Source of the DNA: Xestospongia bergquistia
Taxonomy: Eukaryota; Porifera; Demospongiae; Haplosclerida; Petrosiidae
Assembly (NCBI GenBank): GCA_963965975.1
Contig: OZ014411.1
Span: 1,783,001 to 1,847,000, forward strand
DNA: 64,000 bases
Reading direction: 5' to 3'
Shown here: in pieces, positions 13,459 to 63,979 of the stretch
How the letters are laid out: each line of letters opens with the position of its first letter
Position numbering within the stretch: the stretch's first letter is position 1
Notes under the pieces: model-generated
Seen by the model: only the letters and a program-made list of their open reading frames with translations
The model's database searches: none
Told to the model about the DNA's origin: nothing
Made by a program: the position numbers and the translations under genes

Positions 13459-13858
13459 GAGTAAATTACACAAGATCGGGCGGATCACTTTCGGCCGCCT
13501 CCCACAGGACAAACGTGCGAAAGAACGAACTTCTTTACCCTGCTACCATAAAGTATAATCCTTTACTTGTTTATTCTGATACCTTTGATAATTTCTTATC
13601 TTTACTGTGCGGAGCAACAAAGTTTATAAAAAATATTTCGGGCACATGCGTAGGCGGACAACAATAATGTCAATTCGTACGAGTGGCAAAACTCTTCTCA
13701 CGATCAAGCAAACTGAGAAAGCTATGGCTGGCAGGATTGATTGATGACTGAACTACAACACCATAGCCAAACCATTTCTTTCAGCAAGGAGTTCACGTCT
13801 CCAAAGAGCAAAAGATCTGAATGGGTGTGGACATGAGTATTCGGACACACCTTCATCA
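13459..13858 (+). repeat. Left terminal inverted repeat of the pogo-like element
   Basis: Reverse complement of 18227-18626 over about 400 bp. It includes GC-rich terminal sequence (CGGGCGGATCACTTTCGGCC), unusual against the AT-rich host. Confidence 0.9.
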
Positions 13859-14081
13859 ATGATGGTCTAGCTCTATAATTATTCAACTGGTACGTTTATA
13901 GTCGTAATGGACACAACTGTCTTCTAATGGCTTTTGAAATGTAGAACTTTAGACATCAAATAATTTAGAGTTTGCATGCAGTGCGCTGTGGTGTTAGAGA
14001 TGGTGTATCTCAGTGATGTATGCAAGTTGAATGGCAATGCTTGTCATTTGAGACTGCAGTCAAAAACCATTAATACAAAAA

Positions 14082-17000
14082 TTAACAGTTTTCACAAACA
14101 TAATTAAAGTCTTTTCTCTTGGCAACAGTGTATAATACATTGACACAACTGCAATGGTACCACTGCAGGCAATTCGAACAATTCACCCAAGTGGTTGCCC
14201 TTGGATGAGCACAAGTTTTATGTAGGCAATTACTAACTAGAATAGAAACTATTAATGATAACTGGCCAATAAAATTCATTTCACCTCTAACACTTTTCTT
14301 CATTTCCTTAGATGTAGCTTTAAGAGTACAAGTGCCATAAGTGCCTAGATAGTAATAGCAATTTGTGACAAAAACACTGACAAGTTAACATACCTGTTGA
14401 TGAAGGTTCAGCAGTAGCTTTAGCACGTGTGAGACTACAAGTGCTATTAGTGCCTAGATAGTAATACCAACTTGTGACAGGAACACTGACAACTTAACAT
14501 ACCTGTTGTTGAAGCTGTAGCTTTAGCACGAGTGAGACTACGAGTGCTATTAGTGCCTAGATAGTAATACCAATTTGTGACAGGAACACTGACAACTTAA
14601 CATACCTGTTGTTGAAGCTGTAGCTTTAGCACGAGTGAGACTACGAGTGCTATAAGTGCCTAGATAGTAATACCAATTTGTGACAGGAACACTGACAACT
14701 TAACATACCTGTTGTTGAAGCTGTAGCTTTAGCACGAGTGAGACTACGAGTGCTATAAGTGCCTAGATAGTAATACCAATTTGTGACAGGAACACTGACA
14801 ACTTAACATACCTGTTGTTGAAGCTGTAGCTTTAGCACGAGTGAGACTACGAGTGCTATTAGTGCCTAGATAGTAATACCAATTTGTGACAGAAACACTG
14901 ACAAGTTAACATACCTGTTGATGAAGGTTCAGCAGTAGCTTTAGCACGTGTAAGACTACAAGTGCTATCAGTGCCTAGATAGTAATACCAATTTGTGACA
15001 GGAACACTAACAACTTAACATACCTGTTGTTGAAGCAGTAGCTTTAGCACGTGTGAGACTACGAGTGCTATTAGTGCCTAGATAGTAATACCAATTTGTG
15101 ACAGGAACACTGACAACTTAACATACCTGTTGTTGAAGCTGTAGCTTTAGCACGAGTGAGACTACGAGTGCTATAAGTGCCTAGATAGTAATACCAATTT
15201 GTGACAGAAGCACTGACAAGTTAACATACCTGTTGATGAAGGTTCAGCAGTAGCTTTAGGACGTGTGAGACTACGAGTGCTATCAGTGCCTAGATAGTAA
15301 TACCAATTTGTGACAGAAACACTGACAAGTTAATATATTGTACCTGTTAAAGAAGAACGTTCGGTAACAGCTTCAGCACATGTGAGAGTAGTGGTAAATA
15401 TATCAGAAAAAGTAGAGTGGTAAAAACCTACAAGTGCAACTTTCCAGTACATGATTATTTATATAATACCGTAAATCTGGAATATTTCATGTTGAAAAAT
15501 ATTCACGTATTAAATTTTTTCTTTGATTTATTTTCGTATATTCCATTGTTCCACCATATTGCACATGCGCATAAATTAATATTTGCTTAAATAATTTTTG
15601 TACATCATCACAAGTACAAAAAATTACGTAATGACGAAATTCTCCTGATTTACGGTACCTTCATTAGAAATGTTTCCCAGTGATTGATTATCTCCAAAGA
15701 TAGGAAGAAGCAAGCTACATGTACCAGTGCATGTTGTATGGTGTTACTTGACACTCACAATGCTTACCATCATCAAAGCTAGAATGCAATTGAGAACCTC
15801 TTCTACATGTTGAAGACTTTTCAAGGGGTGCACTTCCTATTATTAATAATACTAACATAAAAGGTCCTTTTTCTTACGTTTATTCAATTTTTTAATCCTG
15901 GCTTGATCTAATGAGATATAAATGCGATTACATGTATTGGGATATCAACAATCTTACTTCTCTTCTCCTTTCGTTCATCCCTTTTTCTCAGTTCTTCCTG
16001 CTTCTTCCTTTCCTTTTCTTCTATAGCTCTGAGATTCTCTTCACTAGTCAAAACTTTTCCACTATGTTTTGGTGGTATAACTGGAAGCTTACAAAAGGGT
16101 ACAGGTCTTTCTTCATTTATGACTTTTGAAAGAGTAGACGATCGTTGGAGATTGGCAGGGTGTTCAAATTGTTTTGGAGGAACATAGAGAAATGGAAGCA
16201 TAGTATAGTCATTGCAAATACTCTTTTGAGACTGACAATTGAATACAGGTACCACTACTTGAAAGGTATCGGGAGTGCAGGATGGATACATGTAAGGATT
16301 AAATGCAGGAACCAATGAATGTGTAGCCATATCACTGTTAACAAGTGTGATATCATGTGACAAAGGAGAACCTAGATTGGCCTCTGGATTAACATCATTA
16401 GATGACTGATGCATTTCTTTCCATGAATTGTAACGATTATCAGAATCTATATCATAACCTTCTTCAAATCTTCTCTGAAAACGTAACTCTTCTTCCTGTG
16501 TGAATTCAGGAACAGCAGATCTGCGTTGTTGCCGCACAGGGCTATACAGTGGTATAAACTTCAACCCAGTGCGCTGTGCAAGAGTACTGGTGGTTGTATC
16601 TTTCACCAGTGGAACAATCATATCCCTCTTCAAGGGGTAAATCCCTGTACACTTGAAACCAGCCTGAATATTTTTTAAAGTCATTGAATGCATCCATGCT
16701 TCACCAAACAATTTGGAAAACGTGAACCTGCTAACAACCTTCCCAGGATTGTCAGCCAAAAACTTCCGACACACTTCTTTCCAAGAGGTTTTTAATGGAC
16801 CAAATGGGCCCTTATCTAGTGGTTGTGTTTCATGTGATGAATGAGGTGGTAGACAGAAAATTATCACTTTCTCCTCAGCAGCTTTACTGATAACTGAAGG
16901 ATTGTAATGTGATGAGTGGCCATCTAGTAATAGGAGTAGAGGACGAGCAGCAGGAGCATGAGGCAAAAAGTGATGTACAAACCATAAATCAAATAATTCA

Positions 17001-17987
17001 CTAGTTATCCACCCTGAATCTGAGAGACCATACATAGTCCCAGGGACCTCACCATCACACATTGCTGGTCTAAGACATTTCCTGTCAAACAGCACAAAAG
17101 GTGGCAAACAATATCCAGCAGCATTACAACAAGCAAGGACAGTCATCTGGGTTTTATTTCCCGTTGTTACTGCTCTCGGATGTTTGATACCTTTAGCCAC
17201 TATGCCCTTTGGAAACTTTGGATTGAGAGGCATTCCCGTTTCGTCGCAATTAAATATCTGATTAGGTTTTGAAACAAGGTCATTATCCAGAACTGTCTGC
17301 TCTAGTAAATCAAAGTAATTACTTAATACATCAAGAGTGCATGCTGCTGCACGATTATTGGCAAGTTGCTCAGTGGTCCGAAGTGAAATTTCGGAATGCC
17401 GCTTCTTAAAACCTTCCCACCACCCACTGGACACTGTTACATTTTTGCCTTTTTGGTTAACTGCAATTTGAACTAATGACAAGACTTCCTTTCTTGTTCG
17501 TGGGAATCCAATCTTTGTTGTTTCCAAAATAAAGGATACCAACTCTTCTTCTTCACTTTCTGTCAAATACCTTTGACCACTTTTACTACCACTTATTACC
17601 TTTCCGGACACGTGATCTTGTAGCGTAGATTTAGGTATTTGGTACTCCTCTGCTGCTTGTCTAATAGATATGCCATCTTTAACAGCACTGCATGCAAATT
17701 CTAAATCGCTTAATGTCCAAGTCCTATATTTTGTAGGCCGAGTAGAAGACGATGGAATAATAGATGTTGAGCAAAATATACGTTCACATAAGGGAAGTGT
17801 TTTGTCCTTTACGACTAGATAAAATAATTATAATAACACAAACATTGACAAGTTAACATACTTGTTGATGAAGAAGTAACTTTAGCATGAGTGAGACTAT
17901 GAATGCTACTAGTATCTAGATAATAATTAATAGTAACATAAACACTAGTAAGTTAAACATACCTGTTAATGTATAACCTTCAGCCAT
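14082..17987 (-). CDS. Pogo/Tigger-like transposase with C-terminal PHD finger
   Basis: Proposed exons in transcript order: 17987-17963 (MAEGYTLT), 17915-17862, 17814-15958, 15901-15878 (uncertain), 15427-15344, nine mini-exons between 15289 and 14394, 14344-14285 and 14236-14082. All junctions are phase 1, giving about 920 aa. The large exon has a helix-turn-helix (TWTLSDLEFACSAVKDGISI then RQAAEEYQIPKSTL), a CENP-B/Tc5-like second DNA-binding region (SSGWWEGFKKRHSEISLRT) and a DDE catalytic core with the three acidic residues in NCDETGMPL, LLLDGHSSHYN and ETQPLDKGPFGPLK. The last exon encodes a C4HC3 PHD finger: CLHKTC, WVNCSNC, WYHCSC, YVCENC. The long exon is open throughout. A contiguous ATG at 17611 would lose the first helix-turn-helix, so I prefer the spliced start. 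The element may be active. Confidence 0.8.
14285..15427 (-). repeat. Minisatellite whose repeat unit is a whole exon plus intron
   Basis: About ten tandem units with a period of 103 or 109 bp. Read on the minus strand, each has an acceptor (ACTATCTAG), a 54- or 60-nt exon and a donor (ACAG|GTATGTTAA). Mini-exons: 14394-14453, 14503-14556, 14606-14659, 14709-14762, 14812-14865, 14915-14974, 15024-15077, 15127-15180 and 15230-15289, flanked by a diverged first unit (15344-15427) and last unit (14285-14344). The introns are 49 nt (the first is 54). All exons are multiples of three and phase 1-1, and stay open in the frame that continues into the PHD exon, encoding an 18-20 residue Ser/Thr/Arg-rich repeat such as TNSTRSLTRAKATASTT. 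Confidence 0.85.
17862..17915 (-). repeat. Isolated mini-exon unit on the other side of the DDE exon
   Basis: This 54-nt exon (minus strand, ACTAGTAGCATTCATAGTCT and on) is homologous to the mini-exons of the array, with 47-nt introns on both sides, yet lies upstream of the long transposase exon. It keeps phase 1-1 and an open frame (TSSIHSLTHAKVTSSST). Confidence 0.7.
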
Positions 17988-17999
17988 AGCTTTAGAGAG

Positions 18000-18220
18000 T
18001 GACCACGTTAAGAGACCACGTTGACAGCAAAGGCTAGCAAAGGCCACAATGAGAGCAACAACCACGTTGAGAGCAAATGCCACAATGAGAGTGAACACGT
18101 TGAGAGTAAAGACCACAATGACGTTGAGAGCAAAGTTAAAGGTGAGAATGAGAGCAATAATGAGAGCAATAGCCAATTTGAGAGCAAAGTGCAAACACGT
18201 TGAGCCACGTTGAGAGCACG
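18000..18220. repeat. Short-motif array (CACGTTGAGAGCAAA-like) before the transposase start
   Basis: Eight or more imperfect copies of a 12-15 bp motif, (C)ACGTTGAGAGCAAA or ACAATGAGAGCAA, lie between the right inverted repeat and the transposase ATG. ORFs across it are repeat artefacts. It could be promoter or transposase-binding sequence. No equivalent lies inside the left terminal repeat. Confidence 0.5.
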
Positions 18221-18226
18221 CTACAC

Positions 18227-18623
18227 TGATGAAGGTGTGTCCGAATACTCATGTCCACACCCATTCAGATCTTTTGCTCTTTGGAGACGTAAACTCCTTG
18301 CTGAAAGAAATGGTTTGGCTATGGTGTTGTAGTTCAGTCATCAATCAATCCTGCCAGCCATAGCTTTCTCAGTTTGCTTGATCGTGAGAAGAGTTTTGCC
18401 ACTCGTACGAATTGACATTATTGTTGTCCGCCTACGCATGTGCCCGAAATATTTTTTATAAACTTTGTTGTTCCGCACAGTAAAGATAAGAAATTATCAA
18501 AGGTATCAGAATAAACAAGTAAAGGATTATACTTTATGGTAGCAGGGTAAAGAAGTTCGTTCTTTCGCACGTTTGTCCTGTGGGAGGCGGCCGAAAGTGA
18601 TCCGCCCGATCTTGTGTAATTTA

Positions 18624-18626
<3 letters not shown>
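18227..18626 (-). repeat. Right terminal inverted repeat of the pogo-like element
   Basis: Partner of 13459-13858 with about two mismatches. It adjoins a TA run, consistent with TA target choice. Confidence 0.9.
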
Positions 18627-23072: not shown

Positions 23073-26000
23073 GCATAAATTATCTAAGACAGGTAAAGCT
23101 GGTTTACACTAGCCCACTACACTTGCCACCAACATTAAAAATTATGTTACAATGTAGTATAATATAATATCATTAATGTAACTAAACAAGTCTATGATTA
23201 TATAGCAAGCGCAAGGATATCACCCTCTACAAGGAGAGATTACATATCCTCCACAGCAGCAATATCAACCACCACAGGAATATCAACCACAGCAGCAATA
23301 TCAACCACCACAGCAATATCAACCACAGCAGTATCAACTGTAATATAATATTCCTCAACAAAAACAATTTACAAAAACAATCAGTTCTAAACAACATGTG
23401 CTCTAGTTTATTAACTATTAATGTTAATTGATGTTAATTAATGTTAATTACTATCCTACATAACCTCCCTCTCTTCAAGAGCTCGTCTCGAGCGACAATG
23501 TGACATAGGGGGCATATCTATCCGGAACTCTGCGTGTGCGGGTAGGTCGAGAAGTGGAAGGTTCTTCTGATGGGTAATTGTTAGATAATTCATCTTCAGA
23601 CTCACAAACAGAATGTTCAAAAGAAGGTGGCTGCCAATATGTTGGAGAATGCCGTGGCATTCCTTTAGGAACTGATCTAAGAGTATGGAGCCGTAAACGA
23701 TTTATATGAACTGTCTTCTTTCGTCCATCTGAGTGTGCAATTATGACAGTTGGTTGACCTGAATTGTGTTCCAAAACAGTCCATCCACTCTCCCATCTTG
23801 AACAGAGCTTTCCAGCTGTTGGTTTGGATAACCAAACATGATTACCCACTTGAAATGGTGACCTAGTATGAGCCCGAGTGTCATATGTCTTCTTCTGAGT
23901 AGATGCTGCATCGATAAGGTGCAGTTCAACTAATTCATACATCTGACTTAACTGACGTTGGAGTTGTTTAGAATAAACATATGTGTCTGTGGATAGTCCA
24001 GGTAAATCAGATGGAAGTGTGGGTTCTCTACCAAACATTAAAAGATATGGTGAGCATTTAGTAGATGTGTGCGTTGAGGATCGGTAGGCATATAGGAGAA
24101 GAGGCAGCCATTTCTCCCAATCACTGGATTTAACACAATATGTCCTTAACATCTGCAATAAGGAGCGATTGGTGCGCTCCACTAAACCATCACCTTGGGG
24201 ATGATAGGGTGTGGTTCGTGATTTATGAATTCCAAAAGCCCGGCATGTCTCTTTTAAAAGTGTGCTCTCAAAATTAGCTCCCTGGTCAGAGTGAATATAA
24301 GTAGGTATGCCATAAATACTAAAGGTTTCAACGAGAGCTTTAACTGTACCTTCTGCTGTTTGATCCTTCAGGGGAATGGCCACAGGCCATTTAGTGAAGT
24401 AGTCTTGTATAACTAAGATATAAGAATTGCCCTGACACGACATAGGTACTTTTAGAATATCCACTCCTAACATTTCCCAAGGTTTACCCATAGGCATATT
24501 TACCAATGGGACCGGCTGGGGTAGTGCTGGTTTTGCTTGATTGCAAGCATCACAAGAGTCGCAGTAATTTTGAGTATCTGTTGCCATTCCAACCCAGTAC
24601 ACATTTTCTTGTAATCTCAGTAATGTTTTCATATACCCTTGATGAGCACCTAAAGGAGCATCATGAAATTGTTGTAGATAAGTTGCTTTGAGACTTAATG
24701 GTGCTATTGGCACTAGACGCTGCTCTTTACTAACAGGTTTAATAATACAGCGATAAAGAACACCATTCTGTAACTTGAGTTGGGGCCATAGTTGAAGCCA
24801 CCTTCTGTATTGTGGGTGTTTCCATTCTGTACCTTGAGGTTTTTTGTTACCGTTTGTCTTGATGTATGAAATGATTTTTGCTAGAATTGGATCATTAGTC
24901 TGTTCCTTAATCAGTTCACTTTCACTAGGTCCACAAATGACTTTTGTAGCAGCTGTACAAGGTTGCCGTGACAAAGCATCAGCATTCGCATTGTGGGTAC
25001 CTTTTCTATAAAGAATTTTAAATTCAAACTCTTGAAGTTGCAAAGCCCAACGGCTTAACTTTCCTTCCATCTTCTGTGCAGACAACCACTGTAGTGGGTT
25101 GTGATCTGTATACACAGTGAAACAATGCCCCAAGAGGTAGTGTTTAAAGTACTTAATAGCATAAACCAGAGCTAAACACTCTTTTTCGATGACGCTGTAA
25201 TTTTTTTCGGCTGGCTTCAGCGACCGACTACTATAAGCGATAACGTTAGGTCCTTGTTGTAATACAGCTCCCAACCCTGAGTCACTAGCATCGGTGTATA
25301 GGGTAAAGGGTAAGGAGAAGTCAGGACATTTTAAAATAGGTTGAGAAATTAAGCAGATTTTAAGTGTGGTGAAGGCTTCTTGACAAGGATTTGTCCATTG
25401 GAATGTTACACCTTTATTAGTAAGATGATAGAGGGGAGAGGCAATGTTGGCAAAATTTTTTATATATCTTCGGTAATATGAAGCCAAGCCCAGAAACCTC
25501 TGCACCTCTGTAACCGAAGAGGGGGTTGGCCAATTCTGAATAGCTTTCACTTTATTGGGATCTGGTATCATACCGTGTTTTGTAAAGGTGTGACCAAGGT
25601 AGGAAACTTCTTGCACCCCAATAGCACATTTTTCTCCATGCAAGGTCAGACCATAATCTACTAATCTCTGAAAAACTTGTCTGAGGTGTTGTTTGTGGCT
25701 TCTTTCATCACTAGAATATACCAAAATATCATCTACATAAACCATTGCGAAGGGTAACCCCCGAAGTACACGGTCCATTAACCGCTGAAATGTTCCAGGT
25801 GACCCTGTAAGACCAAAAGGTAATCGAAGAAATTCAAATAACCCCATACCTGGGCCTGGTGAAAAGGCTGTTTTTGCTTGGTCTTCAGGTGTGATAGGGA
25901 CTTGCCAAAACCCTTTCCTGCAGTCCAACTTAGTAAATACTTGTGCATTCCCTAAATGATCTTGTACTTCATCGGGTAAAGGTAAGGGATAGCTATTTTT

Positions 26001-28519
26001 TTCAGTCTGTTTGTTGAGTTCGCGATAGTCAATACAAATTCTTATTTCACCATTTCGCTTCGGCACGAATACACAGGGTGCCAGCCAAGGGCTACTACTT
26101 TCTTGTATAATGCCTTGTTCCAACATTTCAGCAATTTGTTGTTGAACCTCTTCCTTATAGTGCACTGGTATTCGTCTTGGAGGGACACGTATTGGTTTAG
26201 AGTTCCCCGTCGGAATATGATGGTATATTGCGTCGGTTTTTCCTGGGACAGAGCAAAACAGGGATTTATATTCCTTAATTATATCCATGTATGCATCAGA
26301 AGAGGCAGGTAGTGTAGATTTACCTGGATGAGTGAAACGTGGTATGGCACAATTTTCAGTATCATCTTCGTCTCCTGATAAAATAGCAGCTGTGTGGTAG
26401 GAGTTTTCCCATAGCTTTTTCTTTGACCATGTTGTGTTCTCCCCGTAGTCCACATTTGGAACTACAGTTGTACCATTGACAGTAACAGATTTTGTCTTGT
26501 AGTCTAAACAGACATTGAATTTGGCCAAGAAATCAGTACCCAAAATGACAGGTGCAACCAGTTGAGGGGCAACATACATCTCATGTGTCACAGACAATGT
26601 ACCTATATGAAGAGGTACAATGGTAGTGTTGCATAATTCCATCTCATTGCAGGAAGCTGTGATAACATTTATAGAGGATGCTATTGAGTTATAACTCAAG
26701 CTGGCTTGTTCAAGCAAGTGTTGACTAATTAACGATACAGAAGAACCACTGTCTAATAAAATAGCACAGTGAATATCTCGTATTTTTCCTGATATTTTTG
26801 AGAGTCGTTTAATATTTACAGGCATATCCAATGTCGAGGCCAAGTGTATTACTTCCGGTCGCCTCCCCTGGCCTGTAGAGACGACCGGTTGGCGTTTCCC
26901 CAACACTGGGCATTTGTGTGACCGTATTTGCCACAGTTAAAACATTGAAGGGTATTACGGCAATTCTTTGCAATGTGCCCAAATTGTTGACACCTGTAGC
27001 ATTGCTGGGAATGGATATTGGTTGCTTTTTTCGGTTTATTCTGATATCTGACTGCAGCAATACTAGTGTCTCGGCTGTCACTTTCTAATGAATCAAGTCT
27101 GGCACCAATATCAAGTATCATCTCTTCTAGTTTCTGTAAACCAGGAGTACTGCCAGTAACTGACGAAGTGGTAAGATGTGCTGCTTCCTCAGGTAACTGT
27201 TCATTGTTCATCATGAGCAAGCGTGCTTTTGCTAAAGCATCTTTGGTAGTCGTGATATCAGCTGGCGAAGATCGCATTAGTTTGGCAATTTCCGTTGGGA
27301 GACCGTCAATGAAGTGATGGAGTAACATTTGTTCCTTCGCCTCCCCAGTTAACTCTGGCATGGCTATTTCAAGTAGTCTCTTAAGGTTATACAAAAAAAC
27401 ACGTGGGGGTTCTCCCGGCAAAAGCCTACGGCGTTCGAACTCTCTCATTACCTGAAAACGCGTTTCTTTTGTTCGAAATTCTGCCCTCAATGCTCTCACC
27501 AATGTAGAGTAATCTGTCTTATCTTCGTCCGCCATCTCTAGGTAGGCTACCAGAACTTCTCCTTCGAGAAATGTCGGGATTTTACTTGCCTTTTTGTCAT
27601 TATCCCATCCATTGGAATTAGCACATATATCAAACTTCACTAACCACTCATCTAGTTCATCGCCATCCTTAATAGTTTTAGGTAAGGCCACATGCCTATC
27701 TGCCATCTCAGACTCTGCTACCAGTGTAATATAATATTCCTCAACAAAAACAATTTACAAAAACAATCAGTTCTAAACAACATGTGCTCTAGTTTATTAA
27801 CTATTAATGTTAATTGATGTTAATTAATGTTAATTACTATCCTACACAACCACAGCAGCAATACCAACCACCACAGCAATATCAACCACCACAGCAATAT
27901 CAACCACAGCAGCAATATCAACCACCACAGCAATACCAACCAGAGCAAGGATACACTCCTCAAGAAGGATATGAAAGTATGCTCATAATAATATTTGTGA
28001 GTCTCAATGTCATTCCTAATTACTTGTAAACAGATGCTTCTCCTTATTTGCCACCTGTTCAACAGCAGCCCTATCTTCCTGCTGACCAGACTGCTCCTGT
28101 CATACAGCAACAATCTGTAAGTAATAATTTATCAAGGACAAGCAAAATAGTTTTTCTTAGACAAATGTAGTTGTTGTACAGTCACAACCAACTCCTTCAG
28201 CTGGAAGGGCTGCAATGCATTTTACAAGCAATCACTACTTGACATTGTCCATTGTGCTGACAATCCTATGTTTCTTTCTTGGTTGGCACTCTCTTTTCTG
28301 TACCATACCAGCTATTATATTTGCAATAAGTGTGAGTATAGTTTTCAAAATATGATATAGTTATTATAGGCACATATATAGGCTCGTGATGCTGAGGCAC
28401 ATGGTGACATGGAAGGGGCTCAAACTAAAGCTCGAATCGCCTTAATCCTAAATGTTGTTTCTGTTGTGTGGTGGGTGATACTAATTGTTGTCCTTGTTAT
28501 TATAGCTGTATCGTCATAA
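23073..28519 (+). CDS. Dispanin/CD225 (IFITM-like) gene C, split by a Gypsy insertion
   Basis: Exon 2 is 23073-23092. Exon 3 is 23206-23338 continuing at 27851-27976. The remaining exons are 28034-28116, 28161-28331 and 28382-28519. Exon 3 is enlarged by tandem Gln/Pro/Tyr repeats (YQPPQQ) and is interrupted by the Gypsy element at 23339-27846; the frame agrees on both sides of the target duplication (CAAC). The membrane part has the best CD225 signature of the cluster: loop [12 protein letters not shown], then LALxLN-type second hydrophobic segment ([19 protein letters not shown]), ending AVSS with no Tyr tail. No exon 1 or promoter block is visible. With the insertion, the full protein is probably not made from this allele; an uninterrupted allele may exist in the population. 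Confidence 0.75.
23475..26906 (-). CDS. pol: Gypsy pol: protease, reverse transcriptase, RNase H, integrase
   Basis: A 1143-codon frame with, in order, a retropepsin-like site ([12 protein letters not shown]), reverse transcriptase (YVDDILVYS), RNase H ([13 protein letters not shown]), an integrase zinc-binding region and an integrase core ([26 protein letters not shown]). It begins inside the end of gag in a different frame, the arrangement that many Gypsy elements use with frameshifting. Element gene, not a host gene. Confidence 0.9.
26849..27706 (-). CDS. gag: Gypsy gag with two zinc knuckles
   Basis: A 285-codon frame starting [20 protein letters not shown]. Its C-terminal part has two CCHC zinc knuckles, [14 protein letters not shown] and [14 protein letters not shown], typical of nucleocapsid. 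It overlaps pol by about 58 bp in another frame. Confidence 0.9.
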
Positions 28520-38353: not shown

Positions 38354-41035
38354 TGTAATATATTGTAATTGTATATTACTTAGCACTTACGTATTGTGTA
38401 TAATTGTATCTTTTGTTATGTTTGATTTACTGTGTATTTGTTATAGGTGACAATGTTATTTGTGTTAATACTCTTTCTTTTATGCTATGTGTTACTTTTT
38501 AGTTACACCTTTCTTTGTTGAGTTTTCTATATAAACTTGCTTGATGTTGTTATTGAATATAGAGAGATAGAAAGATTTATTTCTAAATCATACTTTGTGA
38601 ATTCAGTGGTTTAAGTTACCACATATTTGGCGACGAGGGTCTCAATGGCTGCTACACATGGTCACCTGGGAGAGTTCGACAGTACTCAGGAAGAATGGGA
38701 GACGTACACTGAGCGTCTAGAGCAATACTTCACAGCAAATGATGTCCAAGATGCGGAAAAGCAAAGGGCAATCCTTCTTAGCTGCTGTGGTGCATCAACT
38801 TATCGACTCATCAAAAATGTACTGGCCCCTAATAGGCCTACAGACGTCCCTTTTGATGACATTGTCACACAAACGAGGACACATTTTCACCCGACTCCTT
38901 CTGAGACGGTACAACGATACCTGTTTTACTCCAGGACCCGAAGAGCAGGCGAATCAGTCTCGATGTATGTAGCTGAGCTGAAAAAGCTGGCTGAGTTCTG
39001 TAATTTTGGAGATACGCTCGAACCGATGCTCCGTGATCGTATTGTTTGCGGAATAGGCAACGAACGCTGGCAGCGTCGTCTACTCGGTGAGGAAGATCTC
39101 ACGTACAAGAGTGCTATGAAAATTGTTCTAGCACTAGAATCAGCAGACAGCCAAGTGAAAGAACTTCAAGGTGCTACAAAGATACACCATGTCCGCAAGC
39201 CTTGGCAATCCCAGAGACCCAAGAGACAAGACACACTTCCACAGATTGTACCGTGTTTTCGTTGTGGCGGAAAGCACGAGCCCAAGGAGTGCCGATTTAA
39301 GGACTCGGAGTGTCACTTTTGTCACAAGAAAGGACACATATCCAAAGTTTGCCGTAAGAAGACATGGAGTCAACAAGGTAAACGTACAGCGACTCCACAT
39401 GGTACAAACACTGTTGCTGAACCCGATGAAGTGGAGTATCCCTTGCATGCTCTCACTACAGGCAAAAACCACCCACTTACAGTGAAAGTGAAGATAAATA
39501 ACGCCGACTTACAGATGGAAGTCGACACAGGAGCTACTCTATCTATAATCAGCAAAAAGACATACGAGAGGCTATGGCCCACACAAAAGCTGGCTCCGTT
39601 GTTAAAGTTCTCTCACGCTACGTTAAAAACGTATACTGGTGAACAGATTAATGTATTAGGGTCTATTGATGTCAATGTGACCTACCAGACTCAAAAGAGA
39701 CGATTACCGCTGTTAGTAGTACCAGGAGATGGTCCATCACTGTTAGGCCGAGACTGGCTACGGCAGATAAAAGTAGAATGGTCAGATCTCCATGCTCTTA
39801 GTACTATAGATCCTCTCGACTCGTGGAAACGGCCAGAACGTCCATGGTCACGATTACACGCAGACTATGCAGGTCCATTTTTAGGTAAGATGTTTCTTAT
39901 CGTCGTAGATGCTTACTCGAAATGGCTAGAAGTTATACCTGTGAGTTCTGCTACATCTCTCTCAACAATTGAACAGTTCAGATCTATATTCTCCATACAC
40001 GGTTTACCTGAAGTGCTAGTTACTGACAATGGCACTGCATTTACAAGTACTGAATTTGCGGAATTCATGAAGAGAAATGGAGTACGTCACGTTAAGTCTG
40101 CTCCATATCACCCAGCATCTAATGGGCTGGCAGAGAGAGCTGTTCAGACATTTAAAGAAAGCATGAGGAAACAGTCAAAAGACTCTCTCAATACTCGTAT
40201 AGCTCGTCTTCTCTTTAGCTACCGTATTACTCCTCATACAACAACTGGCACTAGCCCAGCTGAACTCTTATTCAGTAGACTTCCACGTTCACATTTGGAC
40301 TTACTGAAGCCAACTTTAGCGGGAAGAGTGCTTAGAAAGCAAGAAAAGCAGAAAGAAAACCATGATGTTCGTTCTAAAGAGAGAACATTTCAGGTTGGTG
40401 ATTTTGTATTTATTTGTGATTTTCCAGATCGTAAACATTGGCTCTCTGGAAAAATTATATCTACTAAAGGTCCATGTTCCTATTTAGTGGAACTTGAGGA
40501 TGGACGAATTGTTCGACGACATGTTGACCATATTCGAGCATGTACATCTAATTCATGTTCACCTCCTACTGATGTACCAGCTCCGTTAAATGGTTCTGAT
40601 GATGACTTAGCTGATATCTCTATCCCGACACCTCCTTTACATGAAGATTCATCACCTGTTTCAGTTGAAGCACCCCAACCTACATTACGTCGTTCAACAA
40701 GAATTTCTCGACCTCCTGATCGATATTTTTAATAACTCAATTAGTTCAATTTAAAAAGGGAGGAATGTAATATATTGTAATTGTATATTACTTAGCACTT
40801 ACGTATTGTGTATAATTGTATCTTTTGTTATGTTTGATTTACTGTGTATTTGTTATAGGTGACAATGTTATTTGTGTTAATACTCTTTCTTTTATGCTAT
40901 GTGTTACTTTTTAGTTACACCTTTCTTTGTTGAGTTTTCTATATAAACTTGCTTGATGTTGTTATTGAATATAGAGAGATAGAAAGATTTATTTCTAAAT
41001 CATACTTTGTGAATTCAGTGGTTTAAGTTACCACA
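38354..41035 (+). mobile_element. Young compact Gypsy element, incomplete
   Basis: The 270-bp LTRs (38354-38623 and 40766-41035) begin TGTAATATATTG, end AGTTACCACA and look identical. A GTAAT target duplication flanks it (38349-38353 and 41036-41040). A primer-binding-like TTTGGCGACGAGGG and a purine tract (AAAAAGGGAGGAA) adjoin the LTRs. At 2.68 kb it is much shorter than a full Gypsy element, so it is probably non-autonomous (about one major break). The empty site survives in the partner block near 536-545, so insertion postdates the segmental duplication. Confidence 0.92.
38627..40732 (+). CDS. Gypsy polyprotein (gag, protease and integrase parts)
   Basis: One 701-codon frame. Recognisable parts are a gag region, two zinc knuckles (CFRCGGKHEPKEC and CHFCHKKGHISKVC), a retropepsin-like site (VDTGATLSIIS) and an integrase core (VTDNGTAFTSTEF, YHPASNGLAERAVQTF). 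Not all pol domains of a complete Gypsy element are represented. Codon use and GC content are higher than in the surrounding AT-rich sequence. Confidence 0.88.
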   Translation: MATRVSMAATHGHLGEFDSTQEEWETYTERLEQYFTANDVQDAEKQRAILLSCCGASTYRLIKNVLAPNRPTDVPFDDIVTQTRTHFHPTPSETVQRYLFYSRTRRAGESVSMYVAELKKLAEFCNFGDTLEPMLRDRIVCGIGNERWQRRLLGEEDLTYKSAMKIVLALESADSQVKELQGATKIHHVRKPWQSQRPKRQDTLPQIVPCFRCGGKHEPKECRFKDSECHFCHKKGHISKVCRKKTWSQQGKRTATPHGTNTVAEPDEVEYPLHALTTGKNHPLTVKVKINNADLQMEVDTGATLSIISKKTYERLWPTQKLAPLLKFSHATLKTYTGEQINVLGSIDVNVTYQTQKRRLPLLVVPGDGPSLLGRDWLRQIKVEWSDLHALSTIDPLDSWKRPERPWSRLHADYAGPFLGKMFLIVVDAYSKWLEVIPVSSATSLSTIEQFRSIFSIHGLPEVLVTDNGTAFTSTEFAEFMKRNGVRHVKSAPYHPASNGLAERAVQTFKESMRKQSKDSLNTRIARLLFSYRITPHTTTGTSPAELLFSRLPRSHLDLLKPTLAGRVLRKQEKQKENHDVRSKERTFQVGDFVFICDFPDRKHWLSGKIISTKGPCSYLVELEDGRIVRRHVDHIRACTSNSCSPPTDVPAPLNGSDDDLADISIPTPPLHEDSSPVSVEAPQPTLRRSTRISRPPDRYF

Positions 41036-49776: not shown

Positions 49777-52700
49777 ATGGAAGGTATCTATTTGCTATGT
49801 ACTATTTCTTTCATGTTGTTATGGTTGTGTAAATGCGATACTTTCGTACATAAATAAACACATAAGTCGCACCATTATTGATCGATATTCCCAAGACTGC
49901 AAGTGTTGCAAGCACTCTTCGGTTGAAAGTCAATGCTTTAACGTGTATGTATGTAATATAAATATGTAGAACAATGTACAGTTTAGGTATAGATAATGTA
50001 CCATAAATATGCTATATCGGTCACGAAGTGTGTATTATGATGACGTTGTGTCATCATAAGTATGCGTAATTGTATCAGCACACACTACTGAGGCAAAGCT
50101 GAGGGCTAGATATCTCGACCATCATAACGAAGTAGTTGCCTAATGTAATAGGAAACAGGACTTGTTTATTAATACTGGTATAGCATAGCAAATAACCACA
50201 GCCTATGCCAAATAAACCTGTAACAAGTGTGGCATTATATCACAGTAAAAAGTGATGGGTGAATTAAAATACTAACATTAGTACTTATTTTCAAATGATT
50301 TAAACACTAAATATCTATAGATTGAATGTTTCCTTCTTTCGAAATGTTATAGCATTAAAAATTAAACGAGCCACCAAAGTTATATGAAGTTGTAGTATCC
50401 ATATGTTGCTAAAATATAAATACTTTTGTTGATATGGTAGGCCTGTATGTCTTTAATTGGCAGCTATTTCCATAATTTATCAGCATTGTCAGTGTGATTA
50501 AAACTAGAAAATTGTTTAAGTTGGAAATTAATGATGTTTTAAGTTGTGACTCTAGCTTTAGATATTACATGCAAGATTGCTATTGTTTTCATTAGTATAT
50601 ACTGGTTTTGCAATGATTTATTATCCTGAACACTACACAGTAAAAAGTGATGGGTAGAAAGTACCCAAGCAATTGGGTCAAAATACCTATAACTCAGGTA
50701 ACCCATGTCTTGCGCTAAATAACCCGATAAAATAATAATTAAAACAAGTAACAAATGTACTGGTGATTATAGCCTACATCTATAGTTAAAGTAACATCTG
50801 ATGTAATTAATTGAAGTAACAATTACTGTTACTTTAACTTCATGCACTGTGCTTACTGTAACACTTAATAGGTTATAACATATGTTGCAGTTATCATAAC
50901 TAACAAAATAGATCGTTATAACTAATATTGTTAATGTAAATCAGATTATTAAGACTGAAAGTAGTCATTTGAGGCATATTGAAATGCTGCATGGTGATGT
51001 AAGTAATCATTATTCAAAAACGTATGACATCAATAGACGGTCGTCTCTACTTGATGTTAAGTATTTCAACATGTTTGAGGGTGGTTTACCTCATAACACT
51101 TTACATGATATTCTTGAAGGGATAGCACCTTTGCATGGAGATTAAACTTTTGGTTTCATGGTTTGTTTACCTTGGGCAAATTGAATGATAGACATTTGAA
51201 ATTCAACTTTGGTTATTCTGAAAATGATAAGCCTGTACATATTCTCAGTCAATGTTTAAATACAGTGATACCAACAAAAATTAAGAGCAATTGCATTACA
51301 AATATTACTTGTTGTGCAAATTTTACCTTTCTTAATTGTTCACAAAATCCTGAAAGCGAAGAACACTTGTCATGTTTCTTGTTGTTAAGGAAGATAATTG
51401 ACAATGTTCTTTACCCTTTCAAACAGTCCTTTCGCCTATCTAACTATAAGAACATTTCTTTAAGTCTGGCTTGTCGTCATCAAAGATGGATGTGTTATGA
51501 ATTAGTAGCAGGCACACTTTTACATGCTCCTCTTGAATGGCATGTGGTCCAGCTATATGTGTTAGCAGACTTTAGGCAATGAATTGATTATGAGAGAGTA
51601 TAATATAACAACAATAAATATAATCAGAAATAGCAAGTCTGCAAGAGAGAGATTGATCAGTAGGCATATATATATAACAATACAAAAATCATTCATTTTA
51701 TATAGCATCATTTACAGGAAGTATTACATAACTATGTTTACATAAGTGGTTAACACATTCATACTTATAAATCACTGTTCTCTAACACTCCCACTTGATT
51801 TATCAGTTTGAATAGTGGTTGGTAACGATTCTAGTCCCATTAAATTTCGTAATGTTTCAAATCGATCACGAGGAAGTGGCTTTGTGAGCAAGTCGGCAAT
51901 CATTTGCTCAGTCGAAATATATTCTAATGTAACGTGTCCATCCAGAACTATTTTGCGTACATAATAATATTTGATGACGATGTGTTGGGTATATACGAGA
52001 ATGGGAAACTGATTTTCTTGCTATTGCAATTGTCCCTTGATTATCTTCTTTTATAACTGTTGGTTCTTCTTGACTAAATTTGAAATCACTAAGTAGTCGT
52101 CTTAACCAAACAGCTTCTTGTGTAGCACCACTTAATGACATGTATTCTGCCTCCGCAGTTGATAAGGCCACTGTAGATTGCTTCTTACTGAGCCAGCTTA
52201 CTGGTCCTCCAGCAAGTAAAAATAGATTACCACTTGTAGAGTGACAATCATCGAGGTCACCCACCCAATCTGCATCTGAGTATCCTACTAGAGTACTACT
52301 TTCTAATTTCTCATATTTCAGTCCTAAGTTAATGGTCTTCTGTAAGTATCTTAAGATCCTCTTTATCGCTGTTAGGTGAGCTTCACTTGGATTTGAGCAA
52401 ACTTTGACACTGCTTCCACTGCTTGTGAAATGTCGGGATGTGTGGCTATAGCTGCATACAAGAGACTTCCAACCATAGACTGGTACAGTGTAGGATCCAC
52501 CAATTTGCTGGTTCCATAATCCTTTTTGAGCTTCTCATTAAGATTAGCAGGTGTTGATACCGCCTTAGCTTGTGACAATCCAAACTTTTCTAACATTGCT
52601 GAGATATATGACTTCTGATGTAACCACAAGCACCTCCTGCTCTCATCATACTCAACTGTTATCCCAAGACAGTGATGCAATTTTCCTAAGTCTTTCATTT

Positions 52701-55700
52701 TGAATCTTGATGTTAGATTTCTCTTTACTTCGTTCATCTTCTCATTCATCTTGGCAGCAATTATCAGATCATCTACATATACAGCAACTATTATAATCTC
52801 TCCAGATTCTTCTGTCTTAGTAAAGATGCACGGATCTGCATAACTCTGCTTAAAGTTAGCTGATTTCATATGTTCTTTGAATTCCTTGTTCCAACACCTG
52901 GGAGATTGTTTTAGTCCATACAACGATTTTTTAACTTGCAAACCATCTTTTCTTTTCCTGGTTGGACATATCCTGCCGGTTGTTTCATGTATATATCTTC
53001 TTCGAGTTTTCCATTGAGAAATGCTGTCACAACATCCATTTGGTGTATAGCATATCATTCTGTATAGCCTATGCCAACAGGGTTCGAATCAAGGAATAAC
53101 GTACCACTGGTGCAAAGGTTTCTTCATAATCAATTCCATACTTCCTCTCTTAACTTTAAAAATCCATTTACATTCTATTGGCTTTTGACCTTCTGGTAGA
53201 TCGACCAGTTCCCAAGTATCATTCTCCATTAGGGATTCATACTCTGCATTAGCTGCTGCACTCCAATTTTCAGTGGCAAACGCTTCTTCTATACTTTCAG
53301 GTATTACCACTTCATTCACTATTGCAGCTTCAACATATTCATCAGTTCCAAACCTAACTGGAGGATGTCTCTGCATAATCGACTGATGTATCTCTCCCAC
53401 TGGCCTATTAGGTTGAGTGTCATTCTCATCAGAGTCTACTTGATCATTCACCACAGTTGGGATGATTGTCTCTGCTTCAGTTTTGTTTACCCAAAAATCA
53501 TTTTCATTAAAGATCACATCTCTGCTTATCACAACTTTGGTGGTTTTCTCATTCATCAACCTATAATCTTTGGAGTTGAGCCTATAACCAACAAATCTAA
53601 ACTTCTCAGCCTTTTTGTCTAATTTGTTTCTTTGACAGTCTGGAATGTGGGCATAAGCCATACAACCAAACATCCTCAAATGACTTAGGTCTGTCTCCTT
53701 TGGTACCATTTCTCATATGGTGATACCCTTTCTTTAAATGTGCTGGTGGAAACTCTGTTTTTAATGTAAGCTGCTGTAGCCACAGCTTCACCCCATTAGC
53801 TATCTCTTTAGCAGGTTTTGCATTGTGTCTACCAGTCGGGATTTAGGATTGTGCTCTTGTGGTTTCTTGGGACAGTTCCGTTGAAGATGTCCTGTTTGTC
53901 CATACGTAAAGCACTTTGGTTTCCATTGGCGACGTTACCTGTTACTACCTCTCTCATGATGGTAGAGTGCTGTACCAGAGTCACCTGACCTTTCCCTACC
54001 ATATTCCCAGTTCAGCTTCTTTTCTTCGTGGATCAACGATTGGTGAGCATGGCTCAAAGTGACTGTGTCTCGAGCCTCTAGAGCTGTAACTAACGTCTGA
54101 AAACTTGCAGGCAAACTACTTAGGAGCATTACTACCTGGTCTTAATAGGTGCTCCGAGGGCGGAGAGCTTATCAGTCAATTCCTTCATCCTTTTCATGTG
54201 AGCTTCGACGGAGGTACCTTCTTTCATCTCTAAACGAAAATATTGTTTCTTCAGTAGGAGTTTGTTAGCCAGTGTAGCTCTCTCAAAATGGTTACACAAA
54301 GCATCCCATGCTGGCTTCAGTCTATCATATGAAGTAATAAGGTAAAGTTGAGATGGGCTGATAGCGAGTACAATTGTTGAGAACGCTTTCTGTGCCCTTT
54401 TGTTGTATTCAGCTTCTTCTTGAGCTGTCGCTCTATGCCTTAGCAGAATTTAAGCAATGAATTGATTATGAGAGAGTATAATATAACAACAATAACTATA
54501 ATCAGAAATATCAATGTGCAAGAGAGAGATTGATCAGTAGGCATATATATAACAATACAAAAGTCATTCATTTTATATAGCATCATTTACAGGAAGTATT
54601 ACATAACTATGTTTACATAAGTGGTTAACACATTCATACTTACAAATCACTATTCTCCAACAATATGTAGATAAAGTATTTGTACCACAGATTGTCAAAT
54701 GACTGCAATATAGCTAAATGTCAAAATAACATTGATATAACTGTTTTCAAACAAGACAGTATCCATAGTAACAAAATACTATACCTTTAAAATTTTTCAC
54801 TAGGTATTACAAATTTGAAATAACATCACTTTTCTTTCTAATTTATGTAGTGCCAAGAAATCCAAAACGGGTAAAGATAGTTTGCACAAGACCATTACAC
54901 TGCCACTAACATTCAAAATTGCTATATACAGTTCATTACAATATAATATAATATCATGTACATAATATAACTATATGATTATGCAGCAAGGGTATCTTCC
55001 TCTACAAGAACAGATCACAAATACTTCAGAGCAGGATTTCTCACCACAGGAAGAACACACTCCTCAGGAGGGATACGAAAGTATGCACATAATAATATTT
55101 GTGAGTGTCATGACATTCCTTACTTATAAACAGATGCTCCTCCTCCTTATTATCCACCTGTTCAACAGCAGCCCTGTCTTCCTGATGCTCAAGCTGTTCC
55201 TGTCATACAGCAACAAACTGTAAGTAAGAAAAGTAATAATTTATCAATGAAGACAAGATCATTTTTTTTCTTAGTCAAATATAATTGTTGTGCAGTCACA
55301 ACCTACTCTAGTGGTTGCAAGGTCTGTGTTTCGTCGTACAAGTGATCACTACTTGACACTGTCTATTGCGCTAACATTGATATGTTTCTTCATTGGGAAT
55401 TGCTTCTCCCTTTTGTGTACTATACCAGCTATTGTATTTGCCATAAGTGTAAGCATAGCTTTGTAAATAAGATATTCTTATTATAAATAGATACCTTCCA
55501 TTATATGTGTGTGTAATTATATATAGGCTCATCATGCTAAAATACGTGGTAATCTACAAGAGGCTCAATTTAAAGCTCGGGTTGCTTTGATCCTTAATAT
55601 TATTTCTATTATGTTTGGAGTGGTAGTTGTCATCATTGTTATGGTTGCAAGTGTAAGTGTGCCAATAGCAGTTACAGCTGGAGACACTGGCTATTACAGT

Positions 55701-59852: not shown

Positions 59853-63979
<4,127 letters not shown>

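Follow-up and report, generated by a model that had tools for sequence, protein, structure and literature searches.

Tandem arrays of small exons and expanding repeats that bear introns are already known elsewhere, and our literature search suggests that the transposase setting may be the new part of the locus reported here. A DDE_1 core, an HTH and a TA duplication are features of pogo transposons, and the element that we describe resembles pogo/Tigger transposons in all three. Variation in the number of whole exons is familiar from LPA kringle IV-2, a copy-number variable repeat that contains whole exons and makes protein length vary; unlike the array described here, it is a kilobase repeat that encodes a folded domain in a host gene. 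Davis et al. are said to have described, in 1988, tandemly repeated 81-base exons in a schistosome, and in collagen the Gly-X-Y residues are conserved.

The following comparisons are drawn from excerpts of the papers cited. Fibrillar collagen genes contain 54-bp exons and share with our array the use of tandem small exons, in multiples of three, to make an extended repetitive protein that grows by exon addition (PMC4450265); as far as the excerpt goes, however, they are host structural genes with diverged exons, neither near-identical as in a minisatellite nor mobile. Micro-exon genes of Schistosoma likewise have short exons whose lengths are mostly multiples of three (PMC10526429), but their introns reach about 5 kb, and they are host genes for secreted proteins. 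In the Cryptococcus gene CNN00420, repeats of about 107 nt hold exon ends together with a full intron (PMC2395259). As in our locus, repeat expansion multiplies introns in a gene, the unit size is close and the repeats are polymorphic, whereas CNN00420 is just one gene of a fungus, has gained two introns and is no transposase (PMC2395259). In one listed family of Ginger1 the transposase has a PHD motif towards its C terminus, as in our element, but the excerpted Ginger1 text contains no tandem-exon linker (PMC2836005). A first-pass annotation of this locus held that a linker made of tandem exons inside a transposase is not known to be described, and in agreement with it, a literature search that covered titles and abstract openings, with subscription papers mostly outside it, gave no example of a transposase with such an array. 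Nor does the searched text of the pogo surveys PMC7386202 and PMC7325037 contain any of the words tandem, intron and PHD.

The locus brings minisatellite instability, intron multiplication and protein modularity together in one small mobile gene, and changes of the array can be read from its many near-identical copies. It lends itself directly to questions about the origin of tandem exon arrays, about the multiplication of introns by repeat expansion, and about whether selection acts on the length of a linker that joins a catalytic domain to a chromatin reader.

The Element and Its Ends

The window analysed here is a stretch of 64,000 nucleotides (C1:1783001-1847000) of the 146-Mb genome of the sponge Xestospongia bergquistia, which is assembled in 21 contigs. 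A whole element, assigned to what we call family A, occupies 13459..18626 on the minus strand. Its inverted repeats measure about 0.4 kb and its target duplication is TA; the inverted match between the two ends of this copy exceeds 330 bp, with two differences. Family A copies have the element end GAGTAAATTACACAAGATCGGGC in common, and TA precedes it in 28 of the 30 end rows listed, some of which are duplicated. The TA target duplication is shown by a nested copy (C1:3809447-3814704) that interrupts the DDE exon of a second family A element: when the flanks of the nested copy are joined minus one TA, they match the uninterrupted DDE exon of the window exactly. The two members of this nested pair (C1:3807473-3816314; L020, L023 and L024) lie in opposite orientation, and both have ten array units in the same order of unit types.

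The main exon matches DDE_1 (PF03184; E = 5e-21, 75.5 bits against a cut-off of 22), HTH_psq in its N-terminal part (30.5 bits, cut-off 20.4) and HTH_Tnp_Tc5 (22.8 bits, cut-off 22.2). The element thus combines the DDE_1 domain, an N-terminal HTH of the psq/CENP-B type, the TA duplication and terminal inverted repeats of the pogo/Tigger group, and the relatives of its transposase in the protein collection include those of the sponges Amphimedon queenslandica and Dysidea avara. A plasmid search gave no match. An irregular minisatellite of CTCAACGTGG-like words is located at 18036-18250, in the stretch that separates the left inverted repeat from exon 1.

An Array of Small Predicted Exons between the DDE and PHD Exons

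We built a predicted gene model on the minus strand by splicing at visible GT-AG borders. Its exons measure 25, 54, 1857, 30, 69 and 84 nt, followed by nine units of 54 or 60 nt, and then by 60 and 155 nt; joined together, they would encode a stop-free protein of 945 aa that ends in a PHD finger, with all predicted introns in phase 1. Exon 1 (17963..17987) begins with ATG and, when taken with the 18 bases before it and its intron, resembles a 60-nt array unit (z 18.1), and exon 2 (17862..17915) is unit-like and has the length of the 54-nt array exons (z 26.9). The DDE exon (15958..17814), which carries the three Pfam matches above, is followed by exon 4 (15878..15907) and exon 5 (15768..15836); by eye, the latter has a ...GSAP... 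segment with a similar counterpart in family B.

The array itself extends from 15427 to 14285 on the minus strand, between the DDE and PHD exons, and holds nine complete units. These are preceded by a diverged 84-nt unit exon (15344..15427; z 31), which is followed by a 54-nt intron, and end at a 60-nt exon (14285..14344) whose 5' half is unit-like and whose remainder is unique (z 7.1 and 10.5), followed by a 48-nt intron. From the DDE side, the nine unit exons parsed, each with a 49-nt intron, are found at 15230..15289 (60 nt), 15127..15180 (54 nt), 15024..15077 (54 nt), 14915..14974 (60 nt), 14812..14865 (54 nt), 14709..14762 (54 nt), 14606..14659 (54 nt), 14503..14556 (54 nt) and 14394..14453 (60 nt). 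There are ten CTATCTAG acceptors and nine 49-nt introns of the form GTATGT...CTATCTAG, and TRF reports the array with a period of 103, 9.7 copies and 92% matches (score 1602). The first-pass annotation had described about ten units with 54- or 60-nt exons and 49-nt introns, which is right for the nine units and fails at the edges, where the exon of 84 nt has a 54-nt intron and the last intron has 48 nt. Its statement that the unit exons are multiples of three in phase 1-1, open in the frame that leads from the DDE ORF to the PHD exon, agrees with all nine units in the window. The exons of 30 and 69 nt between the DDE exon and the array, and the two unit-like exons upstream of the DDE exon, come in addition to what had been noted.

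The last predicted exon (14082..14236, 155 nt) contains the stop codon and the PHD finger, which scores 24.4 bits against a Pfam cut-off of 24. In a longer ORF that keeps the last intron, itself a multiple of three (48 nt) and open, the finger scores 22 bits; since the query lengths differ, the rise in score on splicing is weak support for the splice.

Family A Copies Differ by Whole Units

A DNA search of the same genome with the array gave at least 15 element copies, all of which were retrieved. Together they contain 152 complete units, 86 with exons of 54 nt and 66 with exons of 60 nt, and every one of the 152 has a 49-nt intron, a GTATGT donor, an AG acceptor, no stop and an intact frame. 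Within this one genome, the number of units is 6 in one copy, 9 in one (the copy in the window), 10 in seven, 11 in five and 12 in one. The proposal that copy number can change without breaking the frame is therefore borne out, as the copies differ in whole-exon steps and their 6 to 12 units are all in phase and stop-free. Stops or lost phase in other copies, which would speak against that proposal, are absent from the 152 units of family A and present in part of the older family B, described below.

When units that differ at up to two positions are clustered into one type, all 15 copies begin with a unit of one type and end with a unit of another, and the changes in the array are internal. 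Among the nine copies with a full 1857-nt DDE exon, only 0-13 sites of that exon differ, yet these copies carry 9-12 units. Chance does not explain an array that 15 separate copies share, each starting and ending with the same types of unit; an assembly artefact is ruled out by these same types recurring at separate places with differing numbers of units. A dispersed satellite is unsupported, as all 42 array matches coincide by coordinates with copies of the element.

Ten of the 13 copies with a complete model are open throughout, with predicted products of 945-1003 aa; the 13 leave out L013, which is incomplete, and L023, which is split by the nested copy and has its 5' part outside the model. 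In L019, L021 and L022 the DDE exon is frame-shifted and the unit exons are intact. As the family A copies are young, their open frame is weak evidence of constraint, and the comparison of families gives the stronger evidence.

Arrays in Five Further Families

A DNA search with the DDE exon gave further relatives at about 70-77% identity, and 18 loci of a family B were retrieved. TRF found a tandem array in 16 of the 18 loci, with a period of mostly about 115 and 2.2-15.4 copies (some of these arrays run off the retrieved stretch), and returned no row for L036 and L038. Units in family B are composed mostly of 66-nt exons and 49-nt introns, and their sequence is quite different from that in family A: alignment of A and B units shows no clear similarity (z 2.5-2.9), and the DDE proteins of the two families are 69% identical. 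After 15 parsed stretches of 55 nt at the 5' border of the arrays had been dropped, 136 of the 150 exons counted in family B are multiples of three, and stops occur in 9 of the 136; one or two of the 14 remaining exons look like parsing errors. An AG acceptor is found in 142 and a GT donor in 147 of the 150 (8 without AG and 3 without GT). Ten gaps of 85-165 nt indicate that the parser missed some units.

Fourteen loci outside families A and B were also studied, 13 of them hand-picked from the 153 PF03184 matches reported for the genome, chiefly for long open frames, and one (L043) taken from the DNA search. Ten of the 14 have arrays, which form four families, C, D, E and F; as the loci were chosen and not random, this is no unbiased rate. 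No array was found at L043, a degenerate relative, or at L048, L049 and L051. Exons were parsed in L044, L045, L046, L047 and L050, with family D represented twice, and the other five array loci were identified by TRF alone. In the five parsed loci, all 60 exons counted are multiples of three and open, with an AG acceptor in 59 and a GT donor in 60; in L047 the acceptor AG of one unit is lost, and L046 starts its array with a unit-like stretch, 63 nt long and interrupted by two stops, that stands outside the 60. The architecture differs among the families, with exons of 57 and 81 nt and introns of 43-45 nt in family C, exons alternating between 39-51 and 87-99 nt and introns of 52-57 nt in family D, exons of 60-69 nt and introns of 50 nt in family E, and exons of 24-60 nt and introns of 46-49 nt in family F.

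The array lies downstream of the DDE exon in all six families, and this recurrence makes a one-off accident unlikely. A PHD-pattern match follows the array in family A and in loci of families B, D and E (with a stop in that of family E), so that a position between DDE and PHD applies to these four; the retrieved stretches of families C and F gave no match to the pattern. The PHD match of L046 contains a stop, the last exon of L047 apparently runs into a stop by eye, and the stretch of L044 stops short of a full C-terminal finger. In Pfam, the finger of family B scores 21.1, below the cut-off of 24, and that of family D 26.6. The spacing read by eye is C-x-C ... C-x4-C in family B (L027:3740) and C-x4-C ... 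C-x2-C in families A (14082-14236) and D (L045:2462). Since the types of PHD finger differ, the tail may have been swapped between families.

Frame Is Kept While Residues Drift

Exon and intron borders were set by motifs of our own choosing, so the count of exons that are multiples of three is partly a choice; differences between variants within a family are not so affected. In a hand tally of length classes in families A and C-F, multiples of three account for 12 of 12 exon classes versus 1 of 7 intron classes (P = 2.6e-4, Fisher's exact test). Family B was added later, and the result with it is weaker (16 of 21 exon classes versus 3 of 14 intron classes, P = 0.002).

In family A, comparison of the distinct unit variants with their types, over 8604 exon sites and 7448 intron sites, gives 31 nonsynonymous changes (14 of them CpG), 4 synonymous changes and 16 intron changes. 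The ratio of nonsynonymous to synonymous changes, 31:4, or 17:4 without CpG, compared with an opportunity of 108:46, shows no purifying selection on unit residues in family A. Nor is purifying selection seen in family B, where alleles that three or more loci share make up 32 of 136 nonsynonymous changes, 10 of 57 synonymous changes and 20 of 147 intron changes, and are thus no rarer in the first class than in the other two. In these comparisons the frame is constrained and the letters of the linker carry no visible constraint. A kept frame with drifting residues fits a disordered tether, and residue conservation gives the tether no support. Across eight unit peptides, 84% of the residues belong to eleven types (S, T, R, K, G, N, Q, D, E, P and A), and T-R-[S/G] occurs in six of the eight, one of which is from Amphimedon; none of 20,000 shuffle rounds reaches six, for a motif that was chosen after looking. 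Each cassette may thus carry a short T-R-[S/G] motif.

Upstream Units and Related Transposases

Just as exons 1 and 2 of family A, with their introns, resemble the units of their own array (z 18 and 27), two exon-like stretches upstream of the DDE exon in family B resemble the B unit (z 11.4 and 15.5). The upstream copies of either family show no resemblance to the unit of the other. For families C-F, one locus of each was searched in a 2.5-kb stretch reaching about 1.9 kb past the DDE ORF; none gave an upstream copy of its unit, and upstream copies are accordingly rejected as a general feature. The 5' exon may have seeded the array in families A and B, or the reverse.

Searches of the protein collection gave 166 different proteins from the best 120 of 1112 and the best 120 of 684 matches. 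The tree that we built has 39 rows, of which 7 belong to this genome and 32 were picked from the 166 database proteins, some of which may come from this same species (P0060 is nearly identical to family C). Families A and B form one group and E and F another; C and D each fall elsewhere, with database proteins in between, the branches of D, E and the outgroup being long and their placement unsure. Given this spread of arrays over the tree, either the design is old and its units have turned over completely, or it arose more than once.

Among the 166 matches listed, the Amphimedon protein model P0039 is the only evidence from a spliced protein. It is isoform X4 according to its source and belongs to a cluster of 15 members; in this model, the segment that separates DDE from PHD contains four tandem repeats, each of about 17-22 residues. 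A search with the linker and PHD of P0039 alone found nothing else. P0042 and P0160 are the PHD-pattern matches among the 166 proteins listed, and P0027, also among them, has a PHD-like finger at its end by eye, without such repeats.

A Linker Probably Built from Exon Cassettes

We consider it probable, from the sequences described above, that the array encodes the linker of a pogo/Tigger-like transposase, built from separately spliced and translated exon cassettes, and that this linker is a tether. From N to C terminus, the transposase would consist of an HTH, a DDE core, a long linker that is basic, rich in Ser/Thr and probably disordered, and a PHD finger. The minisatellite would supply most of the linker, and its repeat comprises an acceptor, a mini-exon in phase 1-1 with a length that is a multiple of three, a donor and a 49-nt intron. 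The cassettes would be spliced one by one and contribute 18-20 residues each, and unequal exchange, gene conversion or replication slippage could add or remove whole cassettes. As gain or loss of a whole cassette does not shift the frame, the linker would be free to lengthen or shorten. The tether would probably set the reach between the catalytic core and the chromatin reader, and its exact sequence and number of units would matter little. Exon skipping had also been suggested as a way to vary the length in RNA; in the excerpt available for Amphimedon, introns are markedly small and exon skipping is the least common mode of alternative splicing (PMC4432959), which makes this idea less likely than copy-number change. 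More tentatively, the PHD-tailed pogo transposons of this host might all share one design, in which a linker of phase-symmetric cassettes acts as a dial of length or valency that evolves by copy number, with cassettes re-invented or fully turned over in six or more families, which occupy four branches of the tree or more.

Within the same explanation, cassettes could be spliced and translated with a purely neutral length, phase-symmetric cassettes piling up unremoved and no tether being involved. We regard this as a serious, if lesser, possibility: unit number ranges widely (6-12 in family A; 2.2-15.4 in family B by TRF, some arrays being cut by the stretch) and the residues drift, whereas recurrence of the design in six families and at least four branches of the transposase tree, and the similar composition across the eight unit peptides, count against it.

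It is unlikely that the array is a non-coding minisatellite in one large intron, in which case the transcript would run straight from DDE to the PHD exon, with unit exons that are cryptic or rarely used. Because all introns of the model are in phase 1, skipping the entire array by a direct jump from DDE to PHD would also keep the frame, and no purifying selection on residues is seen in A or B. However, a single large intron does not account for length classes that differ by multiples of three in exons and not in introns, for zero stops in 152 and 60 counted unit exons, for intact GT-AG borders in 152 of 152 family A units, or for an Amphimedon protein model with repeats at the same place.

VANC proteins of VANDAL transposons are, in the excerpt available, sequence-specific anti-silencing proteins (PMC10398659). 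An array that acts at the DNA level, with coding secondary, would have these as a precedent (PMC10398659) and would suit the unit-like copies upstream of the DDE exon in A and B, but is very improbable, because one locus each of C-F has no upstream copy in the 2.5-kb stretches searched, the left end of the element (476 bases) has no word longer than 10 bases in common with the units, A and B units are without clear similarity, and exon lengths in multiples of three would be unexplained.

Surroundings in the Genome and the Window

DDE_1 matches on C5, C6, C7, C13 and C15 are regularly spaced, mostly by about 115-225 kb, as exemplified by those at 3304267, 3527981, 3742483, 3947333 and 4151955 on C13, and at C2:15998186-16078744 such matches are about 40 kb apart. 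The regular spacing may reflect tandem segmental repeats of very large size, or else it stems from the assembly.

Elsewhere in the window, ORFs that by eye are like gag/pol of LTR retroelements lie at 23475-27754 (minus strand), 38615-40732 (plus strand) and 51908-53712 (minus strand); two of these appear Ty3-like and one copia-like, in pieces. Two similar 18-bp minisatellites, at 23244-23331 and 27847-27942, flank Ty3-like ORFs and are perhaps part of terminal repeats. A 434-codon ORF at 61225-62529 on the plus strand looks by eye like a run of sushi/CCP domains and is probably a host gene.
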